Below are positions 5,575 to 62,410 of a stretch of 64,000 bases of DNA, in pieces. Position numbers and translations under genes: made by a program. Source of the stretch: Geovibrio thiophilus (GTDB lineage Bacteria; Chrysiogenota; Deferribacteres; Deferribacterales; Geovibrionaceae); assembly GCF_004087915.1 (NCBI RefSeq), contig NZ_CP035108.1:682001-746000 (forward strand), in the 5' to 3' direction. Under the pieces are notes generated by a model. The model was not told where the DNA came from and did no database searches. It was given only the letters and a program-made list of their open reading frames with translations. Numbering within the stretch: the first letter of the stretch is position 1; every line of letters begins with the position of its first letter.

Positions 5575-7572
5575 ATGTTGAAGAATCTGAAGATCGGCAT
5601 GAAGCTGCTGATAGGCTTCGGTATTGTCCTTCTGCTTACCCTTATGGTAGGTCTTGCGGGATACACCGGAATGAACAAAGTGCTCGGAAGCGTGGAGTAT
5701 TCCGAGGATATGTGGACAGTGGGCGAATTTATTCTCAATGCCCGCACGCAGGAAAAGAACTACATCATAAGAAAGGATCAGGCTTCTCTGGACAATATAC
5801 ACAAGGAGCTTGACGGGCTTAAGGCAAGGGCTGAGGAAACAGCCAAAAAAATGGACGATCAGGCGATCACCGCTGATATAAACAAGATAATCGATGGTGT
5901 GGGCAAATACGAAGCTGCTTTTGATAAGTATGTGAATGTGGATAAATCAAAAATCGATGATGAAGCAAGGATGGTTGTTGCCGCTCTGAACGCCATATCC
6001 GAGGCGGAGAAAACAGCCAAGGATCAGGTTAAGCAGTTTAACGATATTCTTTCCTCATCAAAAGACGCTGCGGCGCTTGATGACAAAATGAACAAGGTCA
6101 ACAGTTCTTACATCATCATGATGGATATAGCGGAAGCCAGAAGGCTTTTCTGGCAGTTTAAGAGCACAGGGGATCCTAAAGACGCCGAAAACGTCCGTGA
6201 GCGTATTGAAAAAGCCAGAGCAGCGGCAGAAGCTCTGAAGGCTTCATTCGTTAACAAACACAATATTGAAAGCGCCGAATCACTTATAAAGTCAATCAAG
6301 GACTACAGCGACAATCTTACGGTTTATGTTGAACGCACGGCAGAGCAGGTAAACATTGATCAGGAAATGGTAGACAGCGCCAGAGCGGCGGCGGAAGTTA
6401 CAGCGGTTGCCAACGCCGCAAGCTCCGAGATGATGATGTCCGACTTCAGAAGCGCTCTTGTGATGATCCTTATTATGTCCGCGGCGGCTTTGGTTTTCGG
6501 TGCTGTTGCGGGTGTGGTTATAGCAAAAGGGATCACAGGGCCTATTAACATGGGTGTATCGTTCGCGCGGGAAGTTGCAAACGGTAATCTGGACGCCGAT
6601 ATGAATCTGGAACAGAAGGATGAGGTGGGGATGCTCGCCGCAGCCATGAAGGATATGATAAATAAGCTCCGCAGTATAGTTCTGGAGGTCAAGGCGGCTT
6701 CGCTTAATGTTTCCTCCGGAAGCGGACAGCTCAGCAGCGCGGCGCAGGAAATGTCTCAGGGAGCGACAGAGCAGGCGGCAGCGGCGGAAGAAGCTTCAAG
6801 CTCAATGGAAGAGATGACCTCCAACATCAATCAGAACGCCGACAATGCTCTCCAGACCGAGAAAATAGCCCGCAAGGCCGCCGACGATGCTAAAGAGGGC
6901 GGACACGCAGTAGACCAGACAGTGAAAGCGATGAAGGATATAGCGGGTAAAATCTCAATCATAGAAGAGATAGCCCGCCAGACAAACCTCCTTGCCCTCA
7001 ACGCCGCCATAGAGGCAGCACGGGCAGGGGAACACGGAAAAGGCTTCGCAGTTGTGGCAAGCGAGGTTCGCAAGCTCGCCGAACGCTCACAGGAAGCAGC
7101 GAGAGAGATAAGCGACCTTTCCACCACCAGCGTGGAAATAGCGGAAAAAGCGGGCAGTCTGCTCCAGCAGATCCTCCCCGATATACAGAAAACTGCCGAA
7201 CTGGTTCAGGAAATAACTGCATCAAGCAGTGAGCAGAGAACCGGAGCGGAGCAGATAAACAGCGCGATACAGCAGCTTGATCAGGTTATACAGCAGAATG
7301 CCGGCGCGTCCGAAGAGATGGCGTCAACAGCGGAAGAGCTCTCAAGTCAGGCGGAAGCACTTGAGCAGACAATGCAGTTCTTCAAAATGAAGGACAACTC
7401 GGGCATATCCTCATCAAGAGGCAGAAAAACCGCTATCAAAGCCGCGCACATTAACTCAAACAAAACCCCCGCGCTGAAAGGCGCCAAAGGCAAACAGCAA
7501 GGGGATGGAGTGGAGCTGAACCTTTCGGGCAGCGACCACGATAAACTTGATGACGAGTTTATAAGTTACTGA
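5575..7572 (+). CDS. methyl-accepting chemotaxis protein with large periplasmic helical domain
   Basis: 665 residues. TM1 is at about 11-30, followed by a helical periplasmic domain (about 35-290, with an [13 protein letters not shown] segment like the HBM/4HB class), TM2 near 295-320, HAMP ([20 protein letters not shown]) and the signalling hairpin ([20 protein letters not shown]). The last residues are EFISY, which fits the aromatic pentapeptide pattern x-F-x-x-Y used to tether CheR or CheB, after a flexible Lys/Ser-rich linker. I chose ATG 5575 because GGAGG lies 5 nt upstream. Its cytoplasmic half is nearly identical to that of the receptor at 8261. Confidence 0.93.
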
Positions 7573-7588
7573 CAAATCGGAGGTAGTT

Positions 7589-8086
7589 ATGTCGGAAAGC
7601 ATAAACGACACTGGAAGCTGCCAGGTGCTTACCTTTAAGATGGGCGAAGAGGTGTTCGGAGTGAACATCATGTCCGTCAGGGAGGTGCTTGACTACACCA
7701 ATGTTACCAAGGTTCCCCAGACTCCGGATTTCATGCGGGGGGTCATAAACCTGCGGGGCAATGTTGTTCCTGTTATTGACCTTAAGCTGAAGTTCGGCAT
7801 GTCTGCGACGGAGCGCACAGTGAATACGTGCATAATCATAGTCGAGGTTTCCCTTGACGGTGAGAGCGCTATTCTCGGCGCACTTGCGGACTCGGTGCAG
7901 GAAGTGGTGGACTTTGAGAAGGAGTTCATTGAACCCGCTCCCCGAATAGGCACGCAGCTCAACACTGAGTTTATTCAGGGGATGGCGAAAAAGGGTGAAG
8001 GTTTTGTAATCATACTGAACATTAATAAGGTTTTTTCCGCTGATGAGCTGAATATGTATTCGGGCTTACAGGAGAACGCTTCTTAA
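7589..8086 (+). CDS. cheW: chemotaxis coupling protein CheW
   Basis: 165 residues forming one CheW domain that bridges receptors to CheA. Typical segments are LTFKMGEEVFGVNIMSVREV, VINLRGNVVPVIDLK, the DSVQEVVDF strand and the terminal KGEGFVIILNINKVFS. AGGTAG precedes the ATG. It sits between two receptor genes. Confidence 0.94.
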   Translation: MSESINDTGSCQVLTFKMGEEVFGVNIMSVREVLDYTNVTKVPQTPDFMRGVINLRGNVVPVIDLKLKFGMSATERTVNTCIIIVEVSLDGESAILGALADSVQEVVDFEKEFIEPAPRIGTQLNTEFIQGMAKKGEGFVIILNINKVFSADELNMYSGLQENAS

Positions 8087-8118
8087 ACAGGGATTTATCC
8101 CGGAATTTTATATCTGAC

Positions 8119-8190
8119 GACGGATGAGCCGTCACTTTTTATCTGACGCCCTTGTGAGCGGTAAAGAAGGGGGGAGGATTTCCTCCCCCC
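8119..8190 (+). terminator. two hairpins after cheW (likely terminator/attenuator region)
   Basis: GACGG/CCGTC (8119-8133) followed by ACTTTTTAT resembles a weak intrinsic terminator. A very strong 9-bp stem GGGGGGAGG/CCTCCCCCC (8169-8190, ATTT loop) follows without a T-tract. Together they could reduce read-through into the next receptor gene or stabilise the upstream mRNA. Confidence 0.55.
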
Positions 8191-8260
8191 TGAAACCGTT
8201 ATATCTGATCTCTGCATGTGAGCAGCTTAGTTCATTGCTAATACAAAGCGAGGGATCGAA

Positions 8261-10312
8261 ATGTTCAAGAATATGAAACTTGGAATGAAACTCGGCATGG
8301 CTTTCGGGCTGCTTATTCTGATTATCGCCGTACTGGGTTCAGTGGCGATGCTGAACATGTCAAGGGTTAAAACGGAGTCGCTCAAGCTCTCCGAGGAATA
8401 TGTGCCGGAAGTGGATCTGGCAGGGAAGATTGAAAGGACAAATGCCTCCGTCATGCTGAATATGCGTACATATCAGTATTCTAAAAACGAAGAGGATTAT
8501 AAGAAGGCACAGCAGGGCTTTACCGAGCTGAAAAGGTACATAGCCGATGCGCAGGCTCTGGCAGGCAGATCCAAGAACCTTAAGGCTCTGAACGCGGAAG
8601 CGGAGAGTGTGCTCAACGCTGCCAATGAATACGAGGCTCTGGCGAAGTCCACTGATGAGATAAACAGAGCAATACTCGGAACTCTGAATAAAATGGGCAC
8701 AGCCGCAGCAGCTTTTATGCAGAACTCCGAGTCCTTTCTGTATGAGCAGGAAAGGGAGCTTCTCAGCGAAATAAGAAGCGGACTGAGCGCAGACAAGCTG
8801 GCTGAAAGAAGCAGCAAAGTTTCCATGATGAACAGTATTGTAATAGACGGCAACTTCATACGCATCGAGGTATGGAAGGCGCAGTCGACCGGGGATATAG
8901 AGGCTCTTAAGGGGACGTTTGCTAAATTTGCCGAAATCGAAGAAGTGCTGAACAAAATGACATCCGTCACCCGCAGGCAGAACAACCTGAACCAGCTTGC
9001 AGGCATTAAAAAAGCGCTGGAAGATTATGAAAAGGGCATGCAGGAGCTTGTCAGCGCATGGGAAGAGTCAAACAGGCTCGGAGAGAAACGCGGCGCTACT
9101 GCCGCAAAACTCCTTGAAGGCGCACAGACTATAGCCGTTGCGGGCATGACCCAGACATCGGAGATAGCCAATCAGGCGGTATCTGTTCTCAATGCTTCTT
9201 CGTTTACCGTTATGACCGGACTGATAATCTCGCTTGTCATAGGTGTTATTCTTGCGGTAGTAATGACAAGGATGATCACCAGACCGCTTTTCATGGGAGT
9301 CGAGTTTGCCAGACAGGTTGCGGCTGGTAATCTTGATGCGCATATAGACCTCAGCAGCAGGGATGAGATAGGGCAGCTCGCCGCCGCACTCAGAGATATG
9401 ATAAGCAAGCTGAGAGAGATAGTCTCGGATGTGAAGAATTCATCCGAAAACGTTTCCTCCGGCAGCGAACAGCTCAGCAGTTCCGCTCAGGAAATGTCGC
9501 AGGGCGCAACCGAACAGGCGGCAGCGGCGGAAGAGGCTTCCAGCTCAATGGAAGAGATGACCTCTAACATCAACCAGAACGCCGACAACGCCCTCCAGAC
9601 CGAGAAAATAGCCCGCAAGGCGGCTGACGATGCCAAACAGGGCGGAAGCGCCGTGGCACTCACTGTAAAAGCCATGAAGGATATAGCAGGCAAGATCTCA
9701 ATCATTGAAGAGATAGCCCGTCAGACAAACCTCCTTGCACTCAACGCCGCCATAGAGGCCGCAAGGGCAGGGGAACACGGAAAAGGCTTCGCCGTGGTGG
9801 CAAGTGAGGTTCGCAAGCTCGCCGAACGCTCACAGGAAGCGGCAGGAGAGATAAGTGAGCTCTCCATCAGCAGTGTAGAGGTCGCCGAACGCGCGGGATC
9901 ACTCCTTGAGCAGATACTGCCCGACATACAGAAAACAGCGGAGCTTGTGCAGGAGATAACCGCCTCCAGCACGGAACAGAGAACAGGAGCCGAGCAGATC
10001 AACAGCGCAATTCAGCAGCTTGATCAGGTTATACAGAGAAACGCCGGAGCCTCCGAAGAGATGGCGTCCACGGCGGAAGAGCTTGCCAGTCAGGCGGAAG
10101 CGCTTCAGCAAGCCGTTGCCTTCTTCAAGATGAGCGGCGGTTCATCCGCAGACAGCGGCTACAGATCGAAACCGTCCGGAGGACGCAGACAGGGGAGACC
10201 CTCTGCTCTGCCCTTAAACAGGGAACCGAAGGCAAAAAGCACTTCAAAAGGTGTGAGTCTTAATCTTCATGAAGATAACGACAAGCTTGACGAAGAGTTT
10301 GTGAGTTACTGA
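8261..10312 (+). CDS. methyl-accepting chemotaxis protein, paralogue of 5575
   Basis: 683 residues: TM1 at about 10-30, a periplasmic four-helix-type domain rich in Ala and Glu (35-300), TM2 near 305-330, HAMP ([19 protein letters not shown]), then a signalling domain almost identical to that of the receptor at 5575. The ligand domains differ clearly, so the two should sense different cues through one kinase. It ends in EFVSY, again the x-F-x-x-Y tether pattern. It is separated from cheW by strong hairpins, so its level may be set separately. Confidence 0.93.
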
Positions 10313-10335
10313 CATGAACGTTATATAGAAAAAAG

Positions 10336-10369
10336 CCCGCTCCGCGGATGCAGTATTCTCCGGAGCGGG
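10336..10369 (+). terminator. intercistronic hairpin before cheR
   Basis: CCCGCTCCG (10336-10344) pairs perfectly with CGGAGCGGG (10361-10369) across a 16-nt loop and is followed by only a short TTAAT. It is probably a partial terminator or mRNA-processing hairpin. Confidence 0.45.
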
Positions 10370-10388
10370 TTAATATTAAAGGTGAAGT

Positions 10389-11237
10389 ATGTCTTCAAAT
10401 TTTGATGTTTTCCGCCAGAATCTTTCATCTGCGGAGTTTGAGAGAATAAAGCATTTTATTGAAAATCACTGCGGAATCAAACTCCCGCCCACAAAAAAGC
10501 AGATGGTCGAGGGACGCTTAAGAAAACGGCTGAGAAAACACGGCTTCACCAACTATGAGGAATATCTCAACTTTGTTTTCAGCTCCGGCGAAGGAGAGGA
10601 GGAGATAGTCAGCCTCATTGATGTGCTTACCACCAACAAAACGGACTTCTACCGTGAACCCGGTCATTTTGAATACATGCGGGACAGGGTTCTTCCTTAT
10701 CTGCTGAAGGATAACGACAGCGCTAAGGTCAAGGTCTGGAGCGCAGGCTGTTCCAGCGGTGAGGAACCGTACACCGTTTCCATGGAGCTGCACGGCTTTT
10801 TTGAGAGCATTAAAGGCTGGAATTTTGAAATTCTCGCAACGGATATTTCCACGGAGGTGCTGAGAAAAGCGTGCACCGCTATCTATGATGAGGAGAAAAT
10901 AGCCTCCCTTCCTTTTGAAATCAAAAAAAAGTTTTTTCTGAAATCCAAGGACAAAAACGACTGCAAGGTGCGTCTGAAGCCGTTTATAAGAAAATCGGTG
11001 AAGTTTGCGCGGCTTAATCTTATGGATGAAAAGTTTTCCCATGATAAGGATTACGATATAATATTCTGCCGTAATGTTATAATATATTTTGACAGAGAAA
11101 CTCAGGAGAAAATCCTGAGCAGGCTCGTGAGTCATCTGAAGCCGGGAAGGTTTCTTTTTCTCGGACATTCGGAGACAATACACGGGATGAATCTTGATGT
11201 GGAAACAGTCGCACCTACAGTTTACAGAAAATTATGA
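10389..11237 (+). CDS. cheR: chemotaxis protein methyltransferase CheR
   Basis: 282 residues. It methylates receptor glutamates with S-adenosylmethionine. An N-terminal helical domain (1-90, GIKLPPTKKQMVEGRLRKRL) precedes the SAM-binding domain with VWSAGCSSGEEPYT (about 117-130), LATDIS and FCRNVIIYF. The C-terminal LFLGHSETI is typical. The two receptors ending in x-F-x-x-Y are its expected substrates. It is followed by cheD and cheB. Confidence 0.96.
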   Translation: MSSNFDVFRQNLSSAEFERIKHFIENHCGIKLPPTKKQMVEGRLRKRLRKHGFTNYEEYLNFVFSSGEGEEEIVSLIDVLTTNKTDFYREPGHFEYMRDRVLPYLLKDNDSAKVKVWSAGCSSGEEPYTVSMELHGFFESIKGWNFEILATDISTEVLRKACTAIYDEEKIASLPFEIKKKFFLKSKDKNDCKVRLKPFIRKSVKFARLNLMDEKFSHDKDYDIIFCRNVIIYFDRETQEKILSRLVSHLKPGRFLFLGHSETIHGMNLDVETVAPTVYRKL

Positions 11238-56790: not shown

Positions 56791-57294
56791 ATGTTCTGGA
56801 AACAGAAAACAGAGGATACACAGACATTCTCAGACCTCATAAGAGGCTTGCAGCACTCCATAAGCTCCGCCATGGAGATGATCGAGGCACGGAACATCGA
56901 AATACTTGGCAGGTATTTTGACCCGGCAAGCGGAGAGCCTGTCACCCGCCGCCTCCGTCTGGATGAGGAAACTGTCATAGACGTTCCTCTTATATCAGTT
57001 GTGAATCCCTCCACTCTGAATATCAAAGAGGTGGAGATGGATTTCTCCGTGAGGGTTAACCAGACGGAGCTCAAGCAGCGGCAGCCCGACACGTCACTTT
57101 TAAACAATAAGGAGAACAAGCTTTACGCAAACCGTGTCGAGCGTTCAAGCCTGAATGTGAGCTTCGGCGGCAAGGGCGAATCTGTGATGAATGTACGGGT
57201 GAAGTTCAGAGCCGCCCCCATACCGGAGGGGATGTCCAGAATAATAACCGATTTTGACAAAACCATACAGCCCAGAAAAGAAACTAATAAATAA
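56791..57294 (+). CDS. DUF2589-like protein A
   Basis: 167 residues, soluble. An N-terminal helix (FSDLIRGLQHSISSAMEMIE, 13-32) is followed by a beta-rich domain with VPLISVVNPSTLNIKEVEMD (65-84), a polar loop (90-115) and the ending RAAPIPEGMSRIITDF (140-155). The same two motifs occur in the next protein, so the pair are paralogues. The family has no established function. Directly upstream, 56637-56790 is AT-rich with no convincing promoter, although TTGCTT-N17-TAATGT near 56715 is possible. Confidence 0.75.
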   Translation: MFWKQKTEDTQTFSDLIRGLQHSISSAMEMIEARNIEILGRYFDPASGEPVTRRLRLDEETVIDVPLISVVNPSTLNIKEVEMDFSVRVNQTELKQRQPDTSLLNNKENKLYANRVERSSLNVSFGGKGESVMNVRVKFRAAPIPEGMSRIITDFDKTIQPRKETNK

Positions 57295-57305
57295 AGGAGT
57301 TTACC

Positions 57306-57869
57306 ATGCCTAACGTTGGTTCGGAGTTCAGGGGACTGCCCATTGAGGAGCTCATAGCCGCGCCTCTTAAGGCGGCGTGCGACGCGCAGAAGCATCTGGC
57401 GGTTTCAGCTTTTGCTTTTATGAAGGAGATAGGCTTTGACGGCGATAAGCCGAGGCTGCTTGAGTTTAATCTTCAGCGACCGCTGGGTGATCAGGGCGGA
57501 GTGTCAAATGTGAAGGTGCAGGCGCCTTTTATCGGACTCGTGCCGATTCCGTCGCTCCTTGTCGATGATGTTCAGATCGACTTTCAGATGGAGGTCACAG
57601 ACACCGCAACGGCAAAGGAGACAGATTCAAAGAGCGTGGACGCTGATGTTAACGCTAATTTCAAGTTCGGTCTATTCGGCAGCGGCGGGATCAAGATTCA
57701 CGGCAATGTCACCTCCACAAGAGAAAACACCAGAAGCACCAACCAGACAGCGAAATATCAGGTTCGTGTTTCCGCCAGACAGCAGCAGCCCACGGAAGGC
57801 TTAAGCCGCCTCATGGACATTATGGCATCCTGCGTTACGCCGATTCCTGTTTCCGGCAGCGGCGGCTGA
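57306..57869 (+). CDS. DUF2589-like protein B (paralogue of A)
   Basis: 187 residues, soluble. Helical N-terminus (LPIEELIAAPLKAACDAQKH, 11-30), then APFIGLVPIPSLLVDDVQID (73-92) and QQPTEGLSRLMDIM (160-173), which align with protein A. A Gly/Asn-rich region (115-150, FGLFGSGGIKIHGN) and a SGSGG tail are extra. AAAGGAG precedes the ATG. It lies 11 nt after protein A and 19 nt before the nuclease-like gene, so all three appear to be one operon. Confidence 0.75.
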   Translation: MPNVGSEFRGLPIEELIAAPLKAACDAQKHLAVSAFAFMKEIGFDGDKPRLLEFNLQRPLGDQGGVSNVKVQAPFIGLVPIPSLLVDDVQIDFQMEVTDTATAKETDSKSVDADVNANFKFGLFGSGGIKIHGNVTSTRENTRSTNQTAKYQVRVSARQQQPTEGLSRLMDIMASCVTPIPVSGSGG

Positions 57870-57888: not shown

Positions 57889-58365
57889 ATGTCTTTCTCG
57901 GCGCTTTTCAGAAGGGAAATAGTTAACTGGATTGGTGAAAACGAGCGTAAAATAAACTATATCAGCAGGCTGCCCGGCGGTTTTGAAATATGGTTTCAAT
58001 GCGAAATGGCATGCTTCTTTAATTCTAATAACGTGTTCTTTGAGCGTGAGGTGAATGTATACCGTAAAGCGGATTTAAAGGCTGACTTTTTACTTCATTT
58101 TGATGGCGAAAGTTATGTGGCTGAACTGAAATGCCAGTCATTCTATAACCGCGGGGCATTTTATCCGAGCATAATAAGAGATATAGAGAAGTTTTCGCAG
58201 ATAAAGCGTGAATACAAGGACTATAGGAAACTTGTTTTCGGGCTTATTACAGACGGTTACAGAGGGGAACTGCTGGAGTATGAGCGGGGTGAGAAGGAGT
58301 GCGAGCTGTGTTCTATAGACACCAGAGGTGCTTTGGGCTACGCTCTTATCTCTTTCAGTCCTTAA
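57889..58365 (+). CDS. PD-(D/E)XK nuclease-like protein
   Basis: 158 residues, not a family I can name. The arrangement E39 ... D66 (LKADFLLHF) ... E79-x-K81 (YVAELKCQ), on successive predicted strands, followed by a helix (SIIRDIEKFSQIK), fits the PD-(D/E)XK nuclease-like core. No DNA-binding domain is visible. It may be an active nuclease or an inactive relative. AGGAG precedes the ATG. Its 3' end overlaps the convergent amidohydrolase gene by 11 bp. Confidence 0.6.
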   Translation: MSFSALFRREIVNWIGENERKINYISRLPGGFEIWFQCEMACFFNSNNVFFEREVNVYRKADLKADFLLHFDGESYVAELKCQSFYNRGAFYPSIIRDIEKFSQIKREYKDYRKLVFGLITDGYRGELLEYERGEKECELCSIDTRGALGYALISFSP

Positions 58366-59020
58366 GAAGGGCTGCCGTTTTAGCGATTATTTCCTCCGGA
58401 AAGCGCCCGTCCGTGAGGAGTTTTTGATTGAGTTCAAGTTCAATGCCGGAGTAATCCGCATCGGGTATGAGCTTGCGGAGCCATGCAGCCGTGCCGTCGG
58501 ATTTGCCCTGATATGGGCTGTTTTTCATCACCTTATACGGCAGTGTCTTAAGTCCCCTAGCTAGGGCTGCTGCCGCCGCTTTTTCGCTCTCTCTTGCCGG
58601 ATTGTAAAGAATGCCTATGTCCGCCTTCCGTATATCGCCGTTCAATACCGGAGTGAATGAATGAACGGAAATATGGAGCACAGGTCTTTTCGCTTTTTCC
58701 GCAGCCTCAAGAACTTTTTTTCTGAACGGCGTGTGGTATTCATCGAAAAGCCTCTGTTTTTCCGTTGTACTGAGGTTTTTGGAAAATTCCGAGAAGACCG
58801 CCCTGTTGTGCGGCGAGCGGTTGAGGTCGATGATCAGGCGTGTGATGCTGCCCGTGATCGGAGTTATGCCGAGCAGCTTTCCCAGAAGAAGTGCCGCCTC
58901 AGCCGCTCCCGCGTCATAGCCTCTGTGTGATCGGAGAATGTCTTCATTTCCCCTGAACATATACCCGAACTCCGCAGGTACAGTGTTTACGGCGTGCTCA
59001 CAGATGACTATTACGCTCAT
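58355..59020 (-). CDS. N-formylglutamate amidohydrolase-like enzyme
   Basis: 221 residues. Family motifs are VIVICEHAVNTVP (about 3-15), SHRGYDAGAAEAA, GSITRLIIDLNRSPHN and LHISVHSFTPVLNG, with GIELELNQKLL near the C-terminus. Zn-dependent enzymes of this fold cleave amide bonds of acyl-glutamate-type substrates. It is the last gene of the four-gene operon; its ATG overlaps the stop of the GCS2-type gene, so tight co-translation and a shared pathway are likely. I see no histidine-degradation genes, the usual context of the classical enzyme. Confidence 0.85.
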   Translation of the reverse strand: MSVIVICEHAVNTVPAEFGYMFRGNEDILRSHRGYDAGAAEAALLLGKLLGITPITGSITRLIIDLNRSPHNRAVFSEFSKNLSTTEKQRLFDEYHTPFRKKVLEAAEKAKRPVLHISVHSFTPVLNGDIRKADIGILYNPARESEKAAAAALARGLKTLPYKVMKNSPYQGKSDGTAAWLRKLIPDADYSGIELELNQKLLTDGRFPEEIIAKTAALLKD

Positions 59021-60228
59021 GGCTGAAAGAATCTGTTTTCCGCCAGACACTCAGCCAGTTCTCCGTAAACTTCCCTGAGCCTGCCAACGGAAGGTCTGTT
59101 TCCAGTTTGGGACATTATTCTCTCCGCAAGGGAGTCAATGGAGCAGAGCTTCACCGCTTCGGCTTTATACGGCGCGTTTTCGGGCATCCTTTCAGCCAGC
59201 TCAAGGAGCAGCTCAGCCGCCGTCACCTTGCCTTCGATGTTCAGCAGGCTGAGATACGCAGGGTTTTCTATGTCCACATTGCGGGCGTCTTTCGCGCATT
59301 TATTCATGAGGTCAACCAAAAAAGCCTGATCCGCCTCCTTCTGTGAGGAATAGGTGCTCCACCCGCCGCTGATCAGCTTTTTCAATGTCTCTGTTATAAG
59401 AGAAACCGCCGCCATATCCGCCTTGGGGCATTCCTGTATATCCATAAGGCGTATCTCTATCGCCCTGCGGTCAAATCTCGCTATGGCTCCTCTTGAGTTC
59501 AGCCACTCCTCCTGAAGTATGCACTCCGGATCATAGGGTGCTATATCTCTGTACATGGGCTCCAGTATCCCCTTTTCGTAAGCTTCCCATGAAAAACACG
59601 GCTCGGGGATCACCTGTCCGGTGATGAAGGGGATCTTCTTCTGATTGTTTCTGTAAGTGATTATTCTTGTGTCCAGCCAGCCGGTGTGTTCCCCCTCACG
59701 GAACGGGGAGCTTGCGGCGAGAGCCGGAATCAGCGGCAGAAGAACTCTGATCGCCGCATGGAGTCTGCCGAATTCCTCGTCAGTGGCGAAGGGAAGGTTA
59801 ATGTGGGTGCTCTGAAGATTTGACCAGCCGTGCCCCTTGCAGTTGAAAATCCTGTTGTATGTTTCGTATATTTCCTTATCGCCGTGGTTCCAGAGGTGCA
59901 TGTCCGTATCGGGGTTCATGAACGGGTGCATGGCTGTGGGCATGAGCATCCCGCCAGACCCGCTGAGGATTGCGTTTATTTTTGCGATGTTTTCGGCAAA
60001 CTGAGTGTCCAGCCCGCTGATTTCCTTCGCCGGACCGTTTGTCTTAAGCTCTATTACGTGCAGAACAAGCTCGTTTGACCAGCCCACCGCTCCGTGCTCA
60101 AAGCACTGGGTTATTTCTCCGGCGGCGGCTTTAAGAAGCTGATCGCTGACGGGCAGTACTCCGAGTCCGTCTTTTGAGACTATCATGTACTCCAGTTCTA
60201 TTCCGCAAACGGAAAAAAGTCCGTACAT
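59017..60228 (-). CDS. GCS2-type carboxylate-amine ligase
   Basis: 403 residues of the glutamate-cysteine-ligase-2/YbdK-like family. GIELEYMI at residues 9-16 supplies the metal-binding Glu residues, GHGWSNLQSTHINLPF the central motif and FDRRAIEIRLMDIQE the C-terminal active-site strand. It should join an amino-acid carboxylate to an amine with ATP. It begins 2 nt after the ATP-grasp ligase stop, so the two ligases probably act in sequence. The substrate is unknown; glutathione synthesis is not supported, as no standard gshB is here. Confidence 0.88.
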   Translation of the reverse strand: MYGLFSVCGIELEYMIVSKDGLGVLPVSDQLLKAAAGEITQCFEHGAVGWSNELVLHVIELKTNGPAKEISGLDTQFAENIAKINAILSGSGGMLMPTAMHPFMNPDTDMHLWNHGDKEIYETYNRIFNCKGHGWSNLQSTHINLPFATDEEFGRLHAAIRVLLPLIPALAASSPFREGEHTGWLDTRIITYRNNQKKIPFITGQVIPEPCFSWEAYEKGILEPMYRDIAPYDPECILQEEWLNSRGAIARFDRRAIEIRLMDIQECPKADMAAVSLITETLKKLISGGWSTYSSQKEADQAFLVDLMNKCAKDARNVDIENPAYLSLLNIEGKVTAAELLLELAERMPENAPYKAEAVKLCSIDSLAERIMSQTGNRPSVGRLREVYGELAECLAENRFFQP

Positions 60229-60230
60229 AG

Positions 60231-61688
60231 TTACTTTACCTTCCTCGCGACAAGCCTGTTCACAAATTCGCCGATGATTATCTCATAGAGCTTTTTGCCC
60301 AGCACATTGTCCTCAACATCAGATTCTATGCTTGGGTTATCGTTTACCTCTATGACGTAGAATTTATCGCCGACCTGTTTTATATCCACTCCGTAGAGTG
60401 AGTTGCCTATGCACTTAGTCGCCTTGAGGGCAAGCTCCACTACTCCGGCGGGGGCGGCTTCAACGGGCATTGTGTCGAATTTTCCGTTGTGGAGCTGCCC
60501 GTTTTCATCGCATTCCACAATCTGCCAGTGATTGCCGTGCATGAAGTAACGGCAGACGTAAATCGGCTTTCCGCCTATTACTCCCACACGCCAGTCAAAG
60601 CTGGTGGGCATGAACTCCTGCGCCACCACAAGGGCGGACTTGTCGAGGAGCTTTTCCATGGCTTCCTTGTATTCCTTCTCGTCATTGACCTTCACCACAC
60701 CCTGAGAGAATGAGCTGTCAGGCTGCTTGAGGATGATCGGGAAGGGGAGAACCTTCTTTGCGTGGTTCATGTTGTGCCTGTGCAGAATGGTGGTTTTGGG
60801 CGTGGGTATCTTGTTTTTCTGCATAAGCTCGGACAGATAAACCTTGTTGGTGCAGCGTAGGATCGAGGCGGGGTCGTCCATCACAACAAGCCCTTCCGTC
60901 TCCGCCTTGCGGGAGAAACGATATGTATGGTGGTTTACGCTGGTGGTCTCTCTTATGAAGAGCGCGTCAAACTCGGGTATGCGGGTGTAGTCGTCCTTGC
61001 TGATTATCTCAGCGTTTACCCCTTCCTTCTCAGCAGCTTTCATGAAACGCTGAATCGCCACATCGTCAGAGGGTGGGGTCTTTTCAGAGGCATTGGTGAG
61101 TATGGCAAGGTCGAATCGGTAGTTCTTTTTCTGGGCTGCTCTGGGCTTACGGACGAAGAACTCTCTGGCAGCCTGCTCCACAAAGCCGAAGTGCTCTTCC
61201 GGAACCTGCGTCATGGATATGGGAGCTATGGCGTGGATCATCCACTTTTCCTTGAGCTTCACAAAGTCCGCCCGCACCATGGGGGCAACGAACATTCCGA
61301 AAAGGCGTGAGCTGAGCTTGTCGTATCTCTTGGCGAGGTTGCGCCCGAAGTATATGCTTAAGGTAAAGCTTTCGGATGTGAGATGTCCGAGGCTCTTCTG
61401 TATAAGCTCGTCTATTTCATCGGAAATAAGCTTCGCGAACGCCTTTGACTTAAAGTCCTGAATGGTCATAACATTCGGATAGGGTATATGGTTTCTGGCT
61501 GCCGCCAGAAGCGAAACATAGTATCCGTAGCTCTGGTACTGGTATGAACGGCAGAGGTTGAAAACCTTAGCTTTTTTCATGGTGTTGAATTCAGGGTCTG
61601 TGAGGTAGTTCCATGCGGAAACCACTCTTGCGTCGGGAGTGTCGAACTTCCATTCTGAGGGTGTGTTAACTACTATAATATTTGTCAT
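60231..61688 (-). CDS. RimK-like ATP-grasp ligase with RLAN-type N-terminal domain
   Basis: 485 residues. The N-terminal 200 residues (VNTPSEWKFDTPDARVVSAW, CRSYQYQSYGYYVSLLAAAR) fit the RLAN domain found before RimK-like ATP-grasp modules. The ATP-grasp part (about 270-480) has FPIILKQPDSSFSQGV, QEFMPTSFDWRVGVIGGKPI, LYGVDIKQVGDKFYVIEVND and NPSIES, with the metal-binding Glu and Asn. It probably adds glutamate or another amino acid to a carboxylate. Its ATG overlaps the stop of the C39-like gene. Confidence 0.9.
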   Translation of the reverse strand: MTNIIVVNTPSEWKFDTPDARVVSAWNYLTDPEFNTMKKAKVFNLCRSYQYQSYGYYVSLLAAARNHIPYPNVMTIQDFKSKAFAKLISDEIDELIQKSLGHLTSESFTLSIYFGRNLAKRYDKLSSRLFGMFVAPMVRADFVKLKEKWMIHAIAPISMTQVPEEHFGFVEQAAREFFVRKPRAAQKKNYRFDLAILTNASEKTPPSDDVAIQRFMKAAEKEGVNAEIISKDDYTRIPEFDALFIRETTSVNHHTYRFSRKAETEGLVVMDDPASILRCTNKVYLSELMQKNKIPTPKTTILHRHNMNHAKKVLPFPIILKQPDSSFSQGVVKVNDEKEYKEAMEKLLDKSALVVAQEFMPTSFDWRVGVIGGKPIYVCRYFMHGNHWQIVECDENGQLHNGKFDTMPVEAAPAGVVELALKATKCIGNSLYGVDIKQVGDKFYVIEVNDNPSIESDVEDNVLGKKLYEIIIGEFVNRLVARKVK

Positions 61689-62410
61689 TTCTGCACATCA
61701 CCGTCCGTTTCATTTTTTTCGATAACCAGCAGTTTGGCATCGTATGTGAGAACGCCCAGAAGGATGGCATTTATAAGATGCGTCATCCTTACGCTGTAGC
61801 GGCTTGTTTTCATAAACGGGTTGGGGAGCATGGGATCAGCCACGCTCACTTTTTTCGCCGGTTTATCGTATCCGGTTATGACAACAAAGTGACCGGAGGG
61901 TTCGCCTCTCAGGTCGTCATAGTCGGTGTTCTCAGGTATCTCTCTCGGGCTGCGGTAAAGGTATGTGGCGCTCAGCGCCGTTATTATGGGAGTCTGCCTG
62001 TCCAGATATTTCCGTATGAGGGCAGGGGAGAGATCCGCGAACTTCAGCTCACCGCCGAGTGTTAGGAACTCTATATACTTTTTGGAAGTATAGCGCAGTT
62101 TGCTGTCATTTTTCACTTCCATCTGCATTTTCAGCTTTTTAATCATACCGTCAGGGGGCAGCCTGAACCATGTAGGGTCGAAAACCATAAGGTTGTAAGA
62201 GTAAATCGTTGCTTTATAGCCCTTTTTCAGTGCGTGCAGACCGAGGATCACGGCGAGGGTTCCGCCTGTTTCCAGCTCGGTTATTTCATCTCTGAGGGTA
62301 GAAAGCTCTATGTCTTCGCCGTAGTAGGAATAAACGGCGTGAAGGCATGTCGGACCGCAGGAGGTATCATCCGGCTGCGGAAGAATGCTTATGTTCATGT
62401 CTCTGTTCAT
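61685..62410 (-). CDS. C39-like cysteine peptidase
   Basis: 241 residues, soluble, without a signal peptide or ABC domains. The papain-like triad is visible: C18 in DDTSCGPTCLHAVY, H174 in SGHFVVITGYD and D192 in VADPML. C39 domains usually cut after double glycine in bacteriocin leaders. Here the free-standing enzyme leads an operon with two amide-forming ligases and an amidohydrolase, so it may process a peptide substrate or act in reverse as a transferase; both are inference. It starts the operon, 71 bp after the DUF486 gene. Confidence 0.85.
   Translation of the reverse strand: MNRDMNISILPQPDDTSCGPTCLHAVYSYYGEDIELSTLRDEITELETGGTLAVILGLHALKKGYKATIYSYNLMVFDPTWFRLPPDGMIKKLKMQMEVKNDSKLRYTSKKYIEFLTLGGELKFADLSPALIRKYLDRQTPIITALSATYLYRSPREIPENTDYDDLRGEPSGHFVVITGYDKPAKKVSVADPMLPNPFMKTSRYSVRMTHLINAILLGVLTYDAKLLVIEKNETDGDVQK

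Follow-up and report, generated by a model that had tools for sequence, protein, structure and literature searches.

An RLAN-RimK ligase operon with a GCS2 partner in Geovibrio thiophilus and its possible role in making small end-capped peptides

What could a bacterium make with two amide-forming ligases and two hydrolases packed into a single operon? The question is raised by a locus of Geovibrio thiophilus, located in a stretch of 64,000 nucleotides of its genome (RefSeq assembly GCF_004087915.1, contig NZ_CP035108.1, positions 682,001 to 746,000; here called the window). Its four genes encode a C39-like papain-fold enzyme, a protein combining an RLAN domain with a RimK-type ATP-grasp ligase (RLAN-RimK), a GCS2-family carboxylate-amine ligase, and a hydrolase of the FGase family. 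The answer proposed here starts from the company kept by the RLAN-RimK ligase, which is accompanied in some genomes by GCS2 and in others by an enzyme of the GNAT family.

GCS2 and GNAT as alternative partners of RLAN

When an RLAN alignment was run against 84,980 species genomes, at least 593 candidate stretches came back, of which 585 encode relatives, and the best 80 were retained. Since these best matches are skewed towards the type found in the window, phyla were also sampled separately. In even genome samples, RLAN is present in 81 of 397 Pseudomonadota (about 20%), 53 of 199 Planctomycetota (27%), and 35 of 296 Bacteroidota (12%). The GCS2 type is predominant in the Bacteroidota and Planctomycetota samples. 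Among 80 loci of Pseudomonadota, 57 carry a GNAT-DUF3335 peptidase beside RLAN and 21 a GNAT gene without a detected peptidase, the last two being a locus with neither partner and a full operon of the window's type.

Taken together, 243 distinct RLAN loci divide into 124 with GCS2 only, 103 with GNAT only, 3 with both, and 13 with neither. In the three double loci, the GNAT gene lies on the opposite strand or about 2 kb away, and the GNAT genes therefore look like chance neighbors, the internal background being about 2%. The peptidase type follows the partner with no exceptions: 114 C39 enzymes are found with GCS2, and 62 DUF3335 peptidases with GNAT. The C39 and DUF3335 peptidase groups are distant homologues (hhalign, 97%). 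FGase, in turn, is found in none of the 103 GNAT loci, against 44 of 68 GCS2 loci (sets of longer loci).

The distribution of partners over the RLAN tree (181 rows) points to repeated exchange. Most GCS2-type RLANs fall in one starred group of 121 rows, within which are nested a Bacteroidota clade of GNAT fusions (support 99), a Nevskiaceae GNAT clade (support 100), and the locus L061 (loci are numbered here with an L). The tree requires a minimum of five partner changes. Placing all GNAT-type rows in one clade was rejected in an approximately unbiased (AU) test of 66 rows (p-AU 0.0002), so that the partner swap recurred; as the test relied on a quick tree and on groups chosen after the first tree had been seen, it is supportive rather than clean. 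C39 is present in 0 of the 12 GNAT loci of the GCS2-type clade, a few of them placed by similarity to members of the tree, compared with 112 of 127 GCS2 loci (p 3e-10).

Both partners also occur fused to the ligase. RLAN-RimK and GCS2 are encoded in one frame of 990-1028 aa in four Planctomycetota loci (L269, L270, L271, and L273), and about ten loci of the Bacteroidota sample encode a single frame of about 650-730 residues that combines GNAT with RLAN-RimK. Examples of the GNAT-RLAN-RimK fusion are L226, L281, and L283; two fusions of each kind were checked with Pfam. A split form exists as well: in the Planctomycetota loci L274-L278, a short RLAN gene is followed by a separate RimK-like gene, with GNAT next in four of the five, and in L277 RLAN, RimK, and GNAT are three consecutive genes. 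Finally, L010 from Aeromonas caviae holds a very divergent RLAN-RimK (30% identity, on a long branch) adjoining an MgtC-family gene.

The GNAT version of this system has already been described computationally, and the GCS2 version is a distinct variant. Iyer et al. (2009) reportedly named RLAN and predicted its involvement in peptide synthesis. The two versions share an RLAN-RimK ligase of the same family and an adjoining papain-fold peptidase, the GNAT-DUF3335 module being the dominant flavor in Pseudomonadota; in contrast, the window has GCS2, a peptidase of the C39_2 branch, and the FGase often added to this type. No GNAT partner was found among the operon genes and the neighbors tested by Pfam, GCS2 being present instead. 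GNAT-DUF3335 fusions are mentioned in PMC10318531, which cites Iyer et al. (2009). A literature search that did not cover Iyer et al. (2009) itself returned no characterized RLAN, GCS2-operon, or DUF3335 enzyme and no RLAN product. The present analysis worked out the GCS2 flavor, the range of phyla in which it occurs, the exchange of partners, and the fusions.

Conservation of the four genes

An earlier, sequence-only reading of the window had treated the four genes as one functional unit. Their order (C39-RLAN-GCS2-FGase) does extend beyond close relatives, since it recurs in 12 named phyla plus that of the host, at least 13 in all, and the arrangement is therefore not due to chance. The named phyla are Bacteroidota, Pseudomonadota, Nitrospirota, Thermodesulfobacteriota, Ignavibacteriota, Planctomycetota, Spirochaetota, Omnitrophota, Balneolota, Verrucomicrobiota, Acidobacteriota, and Myxococcota. 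Pontibacter and Marivirga are among the carriers of the operon. In the host phylum, RLAN is found in 6 of 51 genomes; four genomes other than the host's show the full order (GCS2 being stop-interrupted in one, L016), including one of another family, and a fifth has RLAN alone. Packing is tight: from the stop of one gene to the start of the next domain, the distance stays within 60 nt for 67 of 70, 66 of 73, and 41 of 47 gene pairs.

Gene content was counted in the best 80 loci, which favor the window's type, together with ten loci fetched earlier. All four genes are present in 45 of these 90 loci, and 20 lack only FGase; RLAN stands alone in 12, with GCS2 in 6, with C39 in 5, and with GCS2 and FGase in 2. 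Some of the missing genes correspond to contig ends, and the FGase of L082 was missed by the profile and caught by Pfam. The core unit is RLAN plus GCS2, with C39 nearly constant and FGase optional. The four-gene unit thus stands as a widely recurring order but not as the minimal set, C39 being missing in about one locus in ten. The C39+RLAN pairs without GCS2 are L026, L030, L067, L079, and L085, of which three or more sit at the end of a contig; the pairs of L026 and L067 look genuine.

No fifth gene belongs to the conserved neighborhood: no transporter, regulator, or murein gene is conserved beside the operon loci, and the commonest neighbor clusters (response regulators, carA-like, and dnaJ-like genes) lie at scattered distances. 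The earlier reading had seen no open reading frame (ORF) for a precursor peptide in the window, and a search for conserved short ORFs at the operon flanks likewise found none, its clusters being C39 N-termini read in antisense and genus-level flanks.

The Geovibrio operon and its proteins

The host genome, 3.0 Mb in one contig, has no other GCS2 or FGase gene than those of the operon (Table 1).

Table 1. Genes of the RLAN-RimK operon in the window.
Product	Position	Strand	Remarks
C39-like papain-fold cysteine peptidase or transferase	61685-62410	minus	241 aa; C18, H174, D192
RLAN domain + RimK-type ATP-grasp ligase	60231-61688	minus	485 aa
GCS2-family carboxylate-amine ligase	59017-60228	minus	403 aa; sole GCS2 of the genome
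FGase-family (N-formylglutamate amidohydrolase-like, NFGA) hydrolase	58355-59020	minus	221 aa; sole FGase of the genome

The four ORFs are intact, and their junctions are as first described: a 4-nt overlap between C39 and RLAN-RimK (61685-61688), a 2-nt gap between RLAN-RimK and GCS2 (60229-60230), and a 4-nt overlap between GCS2 and FGase (59017-59020). The FGase start was taken as the ATG at 59020, a longer listed frame beginning with GTG at 59050. Scans for promoters and terminators gave results no better than shuffles, and PADLOC gave no match to anti-phage defense. All four proteins exceed the curated Pfam cut-offs for their domains, and the active sites, already described as intact, keep their catalytic residues unchanged, or almost so, in alignments of 38-62 relatives drawn from many phyla. 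Structure models were made for C39 and RLAN-RimK.

The C39 enzyme matches Peptidase_C39_2 (4.2e-13) and Peptidase_C39 (1.6e-8), and conserves C18 in 61 of 61 readable rows and both H174 and D192 in 62 of 62. It is probably cytoplasmic, since it has no obvious signal peptide. The structural matches of its AlphaFold2 model (pLDDT 94) are papain-like and include the peptidase of PCAT1, the phytochelatin synthase Alr0975, and, in Foldseek, the pseudomurein endoisopeptidase PeiR. With Alr0975, which cleaves glutathione, and with the C39 leader peptidases it shares the papain fold and the C-H-D site; unlike a close relative of either, it gives only moderate TM-scores of about 0.45 with Alr0975 and PCAT1, although these rank with its best structural matches, and has no close kinship in sequence.

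The RLAN-RimK protein matches RLAN (PF14401; 1.5e-45, 154.9 bits against a cut-off of 25) and RimK (8.9e-13, 48.7 bits against 21), as well as ATP-grasp_3 and others, and scores 85 bits with the RimK family model TIGR00768, below its cut-off of 143.4. Residues K282, K321, R367, D435, E447, D450, and N451 are conserved in 57 of 57 rows. Its model (pLDDT 90) is closest in the PDB to ArgX, RimK, and LysX, in listed matches that span about 300 columns at RimK-like folds and not the RLAN domain.

GCS2 matches its Pfam family at 3.3e-32 and stays below every curated YbdK/GshA cut-off (gshA_cyan_rel, 46.1 against 176.4 bits; gshA_cyano, 31.7 against 249), with only weak kin in the PDB. Conserved in 60 of 60 rows are E11, E13, N52, E53, E60, H101, H133, N137, Q139, N144, R161, E258, D263, Q265, and E266. 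In a few loci the GCS2 frame is interrupted within otherwise well-kept sequence: L016, from the same family as the host, has two in-frame TAG codons (7279-8394), L017 has one TAG (9440-10702), and L086 a frameshift (9400-10720); errors, decay, or read-through of TAG may lie behind these interruptions. Selenocysteine was discarded as an explanation for the in-frame stops of L016 and L017, the codons being TAG and not TGA and their positions non-conserved.

The FGase matches its Pfam family at 3.3e-22 (80.1 bits against a cut-off of 28.9), conserves E8, H9, H32, D36, R61, and H120 in 38 of 38 rows, and has 2odf as its closest PDB entry (1.7e-35). It has no NCBIfam match up to 0.01, including the curated equivalog for N-formylglutamate amidohydrolase (HutG type). 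FGase diverges far faster than its neighbors: the L013 protein is 57% identical to that of the window, compared with 94% for RLAN and 82% for GCS2, and the L015 protein 78%, compared with 95% for RLAN.

Beside the operon, the window holds two tandem DUF2589 genes (56791-57869) followed by a gene for a 158-aa protein without a Pfam match (57889-58365). Compared with their counterparts in L015, the two DUF2589 proteins show 95-99% identity and the 158-aa protein only 43%, which points to unusually fast evolution or exchange of the latter.

A possible pathway and its alternatives

GCS2 enzymes form an amide at the expense of ATP, coupling an amine with a carboxylate that is typically the gamma-carboxylate of glutamate, and GNAT enzymes acylate amines from an activated donor. 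The interchange of the two beside one ligase suggests that both form a capping amide. RimK-type enzymes extend free C-terminal carboxylates with residues (PMC8141765), and the shared ligase would therefore extend the capped unit. With moderate confidence, the operon is thus read as a self-sufficient cytoplasmic route to a small end-capped peptide. In the proposed scheme, GCS2 would take a carboxylate, most likely the gamma-carboxylate of glutamate, and link it with the help of ATP to the amino group of a second amino acid or to an amine. The RLAN-RimK ligase would then activate the carboxylate that is still free on the capped unit and couple another amino acid or amine to it. The papain-fold C39 enzyme may cleave or transpeptidate the product, and the FGase-type enzyme may hydrolyze an acyl-amino-acid amide, probably a glutamyl one, so that both together could remodel or recycle the product. 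These two hydrolases plausibly act on the GCS2-type amide, since both accompany GCS2 only. In this scheme we infer the substrates, the order of the steps, the product and its use, and what precisely each of the two hydrolases does.

The overall logic would be similar to that of glutathione or N-acetylglutaminylglutamine. In the synthesis of N-acetylglutaminylglutamine amide (NAGGN) by Ngg and AsnO, a single protein, Ngg, both N-acetylates a glutamine and links this residue to another glutamine (PMC8070244). This combination of N-acylation and peptide-bond formation resembles the GNAT-RLAN-RimK fusions, whereas the operon has GCS2 instead of GNAT and no AsnO-like conserved neighbor. The Ngg model TIGR03103 (N-acetylglutaminylglutamine synthetase) is absent among the 25 NCBIfam matches listed for the window RLAN-RimK, and the GNAT partner of L009 matches its GNAT region weakly (35.9 bits against 569). 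The initial proposal, in which a glutamyl-type conjugate is assembled by the two ligases, is still the best reading and is strengthened by the in-frame RLAN-RimK-GCS2 fusions, its product remaining conjectural. A free metabolite and a peptide had been held equally possible; a free small molecule is now favored over a ribosomal peptide, since no precursor ORF is conserved.

Several points weigh against a small end-capped peptide. The GCS2 is too distant from characterized members for their specificity to be transferred, and the combination of a RimK-type enzyme and dedicated hydrolases could serve protein modification just as well, as in RimK and RimB. FGase may have an accessory role, because many loci lack the gene and no other gene of the operon diverges as fast between close relatives. 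In addition, 13 RLAN loci have neither GCS2 nor GNAT, several of them at contig ends, and the counts of partners, C39, and FGase are not phylogenetically independent.

Among the alternatives, the one taken most seriously, although unlikely, is reversible protein tagging, where RLAN-RimK and GCS2 would load a protein of the cell with amino acids, which C39 and FGase would take off again. RimK and RimB provide the precedent, being a characterized ligase-protease pair acting on RpsF (PMC12239564), in which RimB reverses the polyglutamylation of ribosomal protein S6 by RimK. The operon shares with this pair a RimK-fold ATP-grasp core and a counteracting hydrolase, the core being closest to ArgX, RimK, and LysX, enzymes of protein C-termini, and L009 has a GNAT partner whose score narrowly exceeds the cut-off of the protein N-acetyltransferase RimI (87.4 against 86.4 bits). 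However, the operon differs in its additional RLAN domain, its GCS2 or GNAT partner, and its unrelated hydrolases; RLAN-RimK scores below the RimK family cut-off, neighbor clustering revealed no conserved gene for a target protein beside the operon, and the functionally known GCS2-family enzymes use free amino acids, as is generally known. Improbable is the salvage of peptides or cell-wall fragments, in which C39 and FGase would free amino acids from an unusual amide, such as a muropeptide isopeptide, for the ligases to re-activate the fragment. The Foldseek match to PeiR and the confinement of both hydrolases to GCS2-type loci would fit this, but it is the ligases that form the conserved core, RLAN with GCS2 or GNAT occurring also without any hydrolase, and the conserved neighborhood includes neither a transporter nor a murein gene.

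Very improbable is a graspetide-like ribosomal peptide, with the ATP-grasp enzyme modifying a precursor and C39 cutting its leader. C39 domains of peptidase-containing transporters do cut double-glycine leaders, ATP-grasp enzymes cyclize graspetides, and the C39 profile is weakly akin in sequence to those transporter domains. Here, however, the peptidase is free-standing and not fused to an ABC transporter, none of which is present, and the only widespread clusters of flanking short ORFs are the antisense C39 readings. The likelihood of a known route, glutathione or ergothioneine synthesis, is close to nil. Formally, the succession of a GCS2-type and an ATP-grasp ligase does match the layout of glutathione biosynthesis (gamma-glutamylcysteine ligase and glutathione synthetase), but both ligases of the operon fall below the curated cut-offs, GCS2 far below all those for gamma-glutamylcysteine ligases, and two extra hydrolases are present. 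Besides, the host genome has no member of gshB (glutathione synthetase ATP-grasp, PF02955), proteobacterial gshA, or egtD (EgtD histidine methyltransferase, PF10017), and a strong canonical glutathione synthetase (E <1e-50) is encoded along with RLAN in at least 8 of 27 RLAN genomes. These pathways are therefore ruled out.

For the synthesis of a small end-capped peptide, the exchange of partners, together with the fusions, restricts the chemistry to amine capping followed by carboxylate extension, which is testable in vitro. More tentatively, RLAN-RimK enzymes may make a widespread and undiscovered class of such peptides, with ATP-dependent gamma-glutamylation by GCS2 and acyl transfer by GNAT as interchangeable caps and with hydrolases specific to each flavor, the GCS2 flavor being used outside most Pseudomonadota and the GNAT flavor in Pseudomonadota and some Bacteroidota and Planctomycetota. 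A common RLAN family with two exchangeable amide-forming partners points to an overlooked metabolite or modification.

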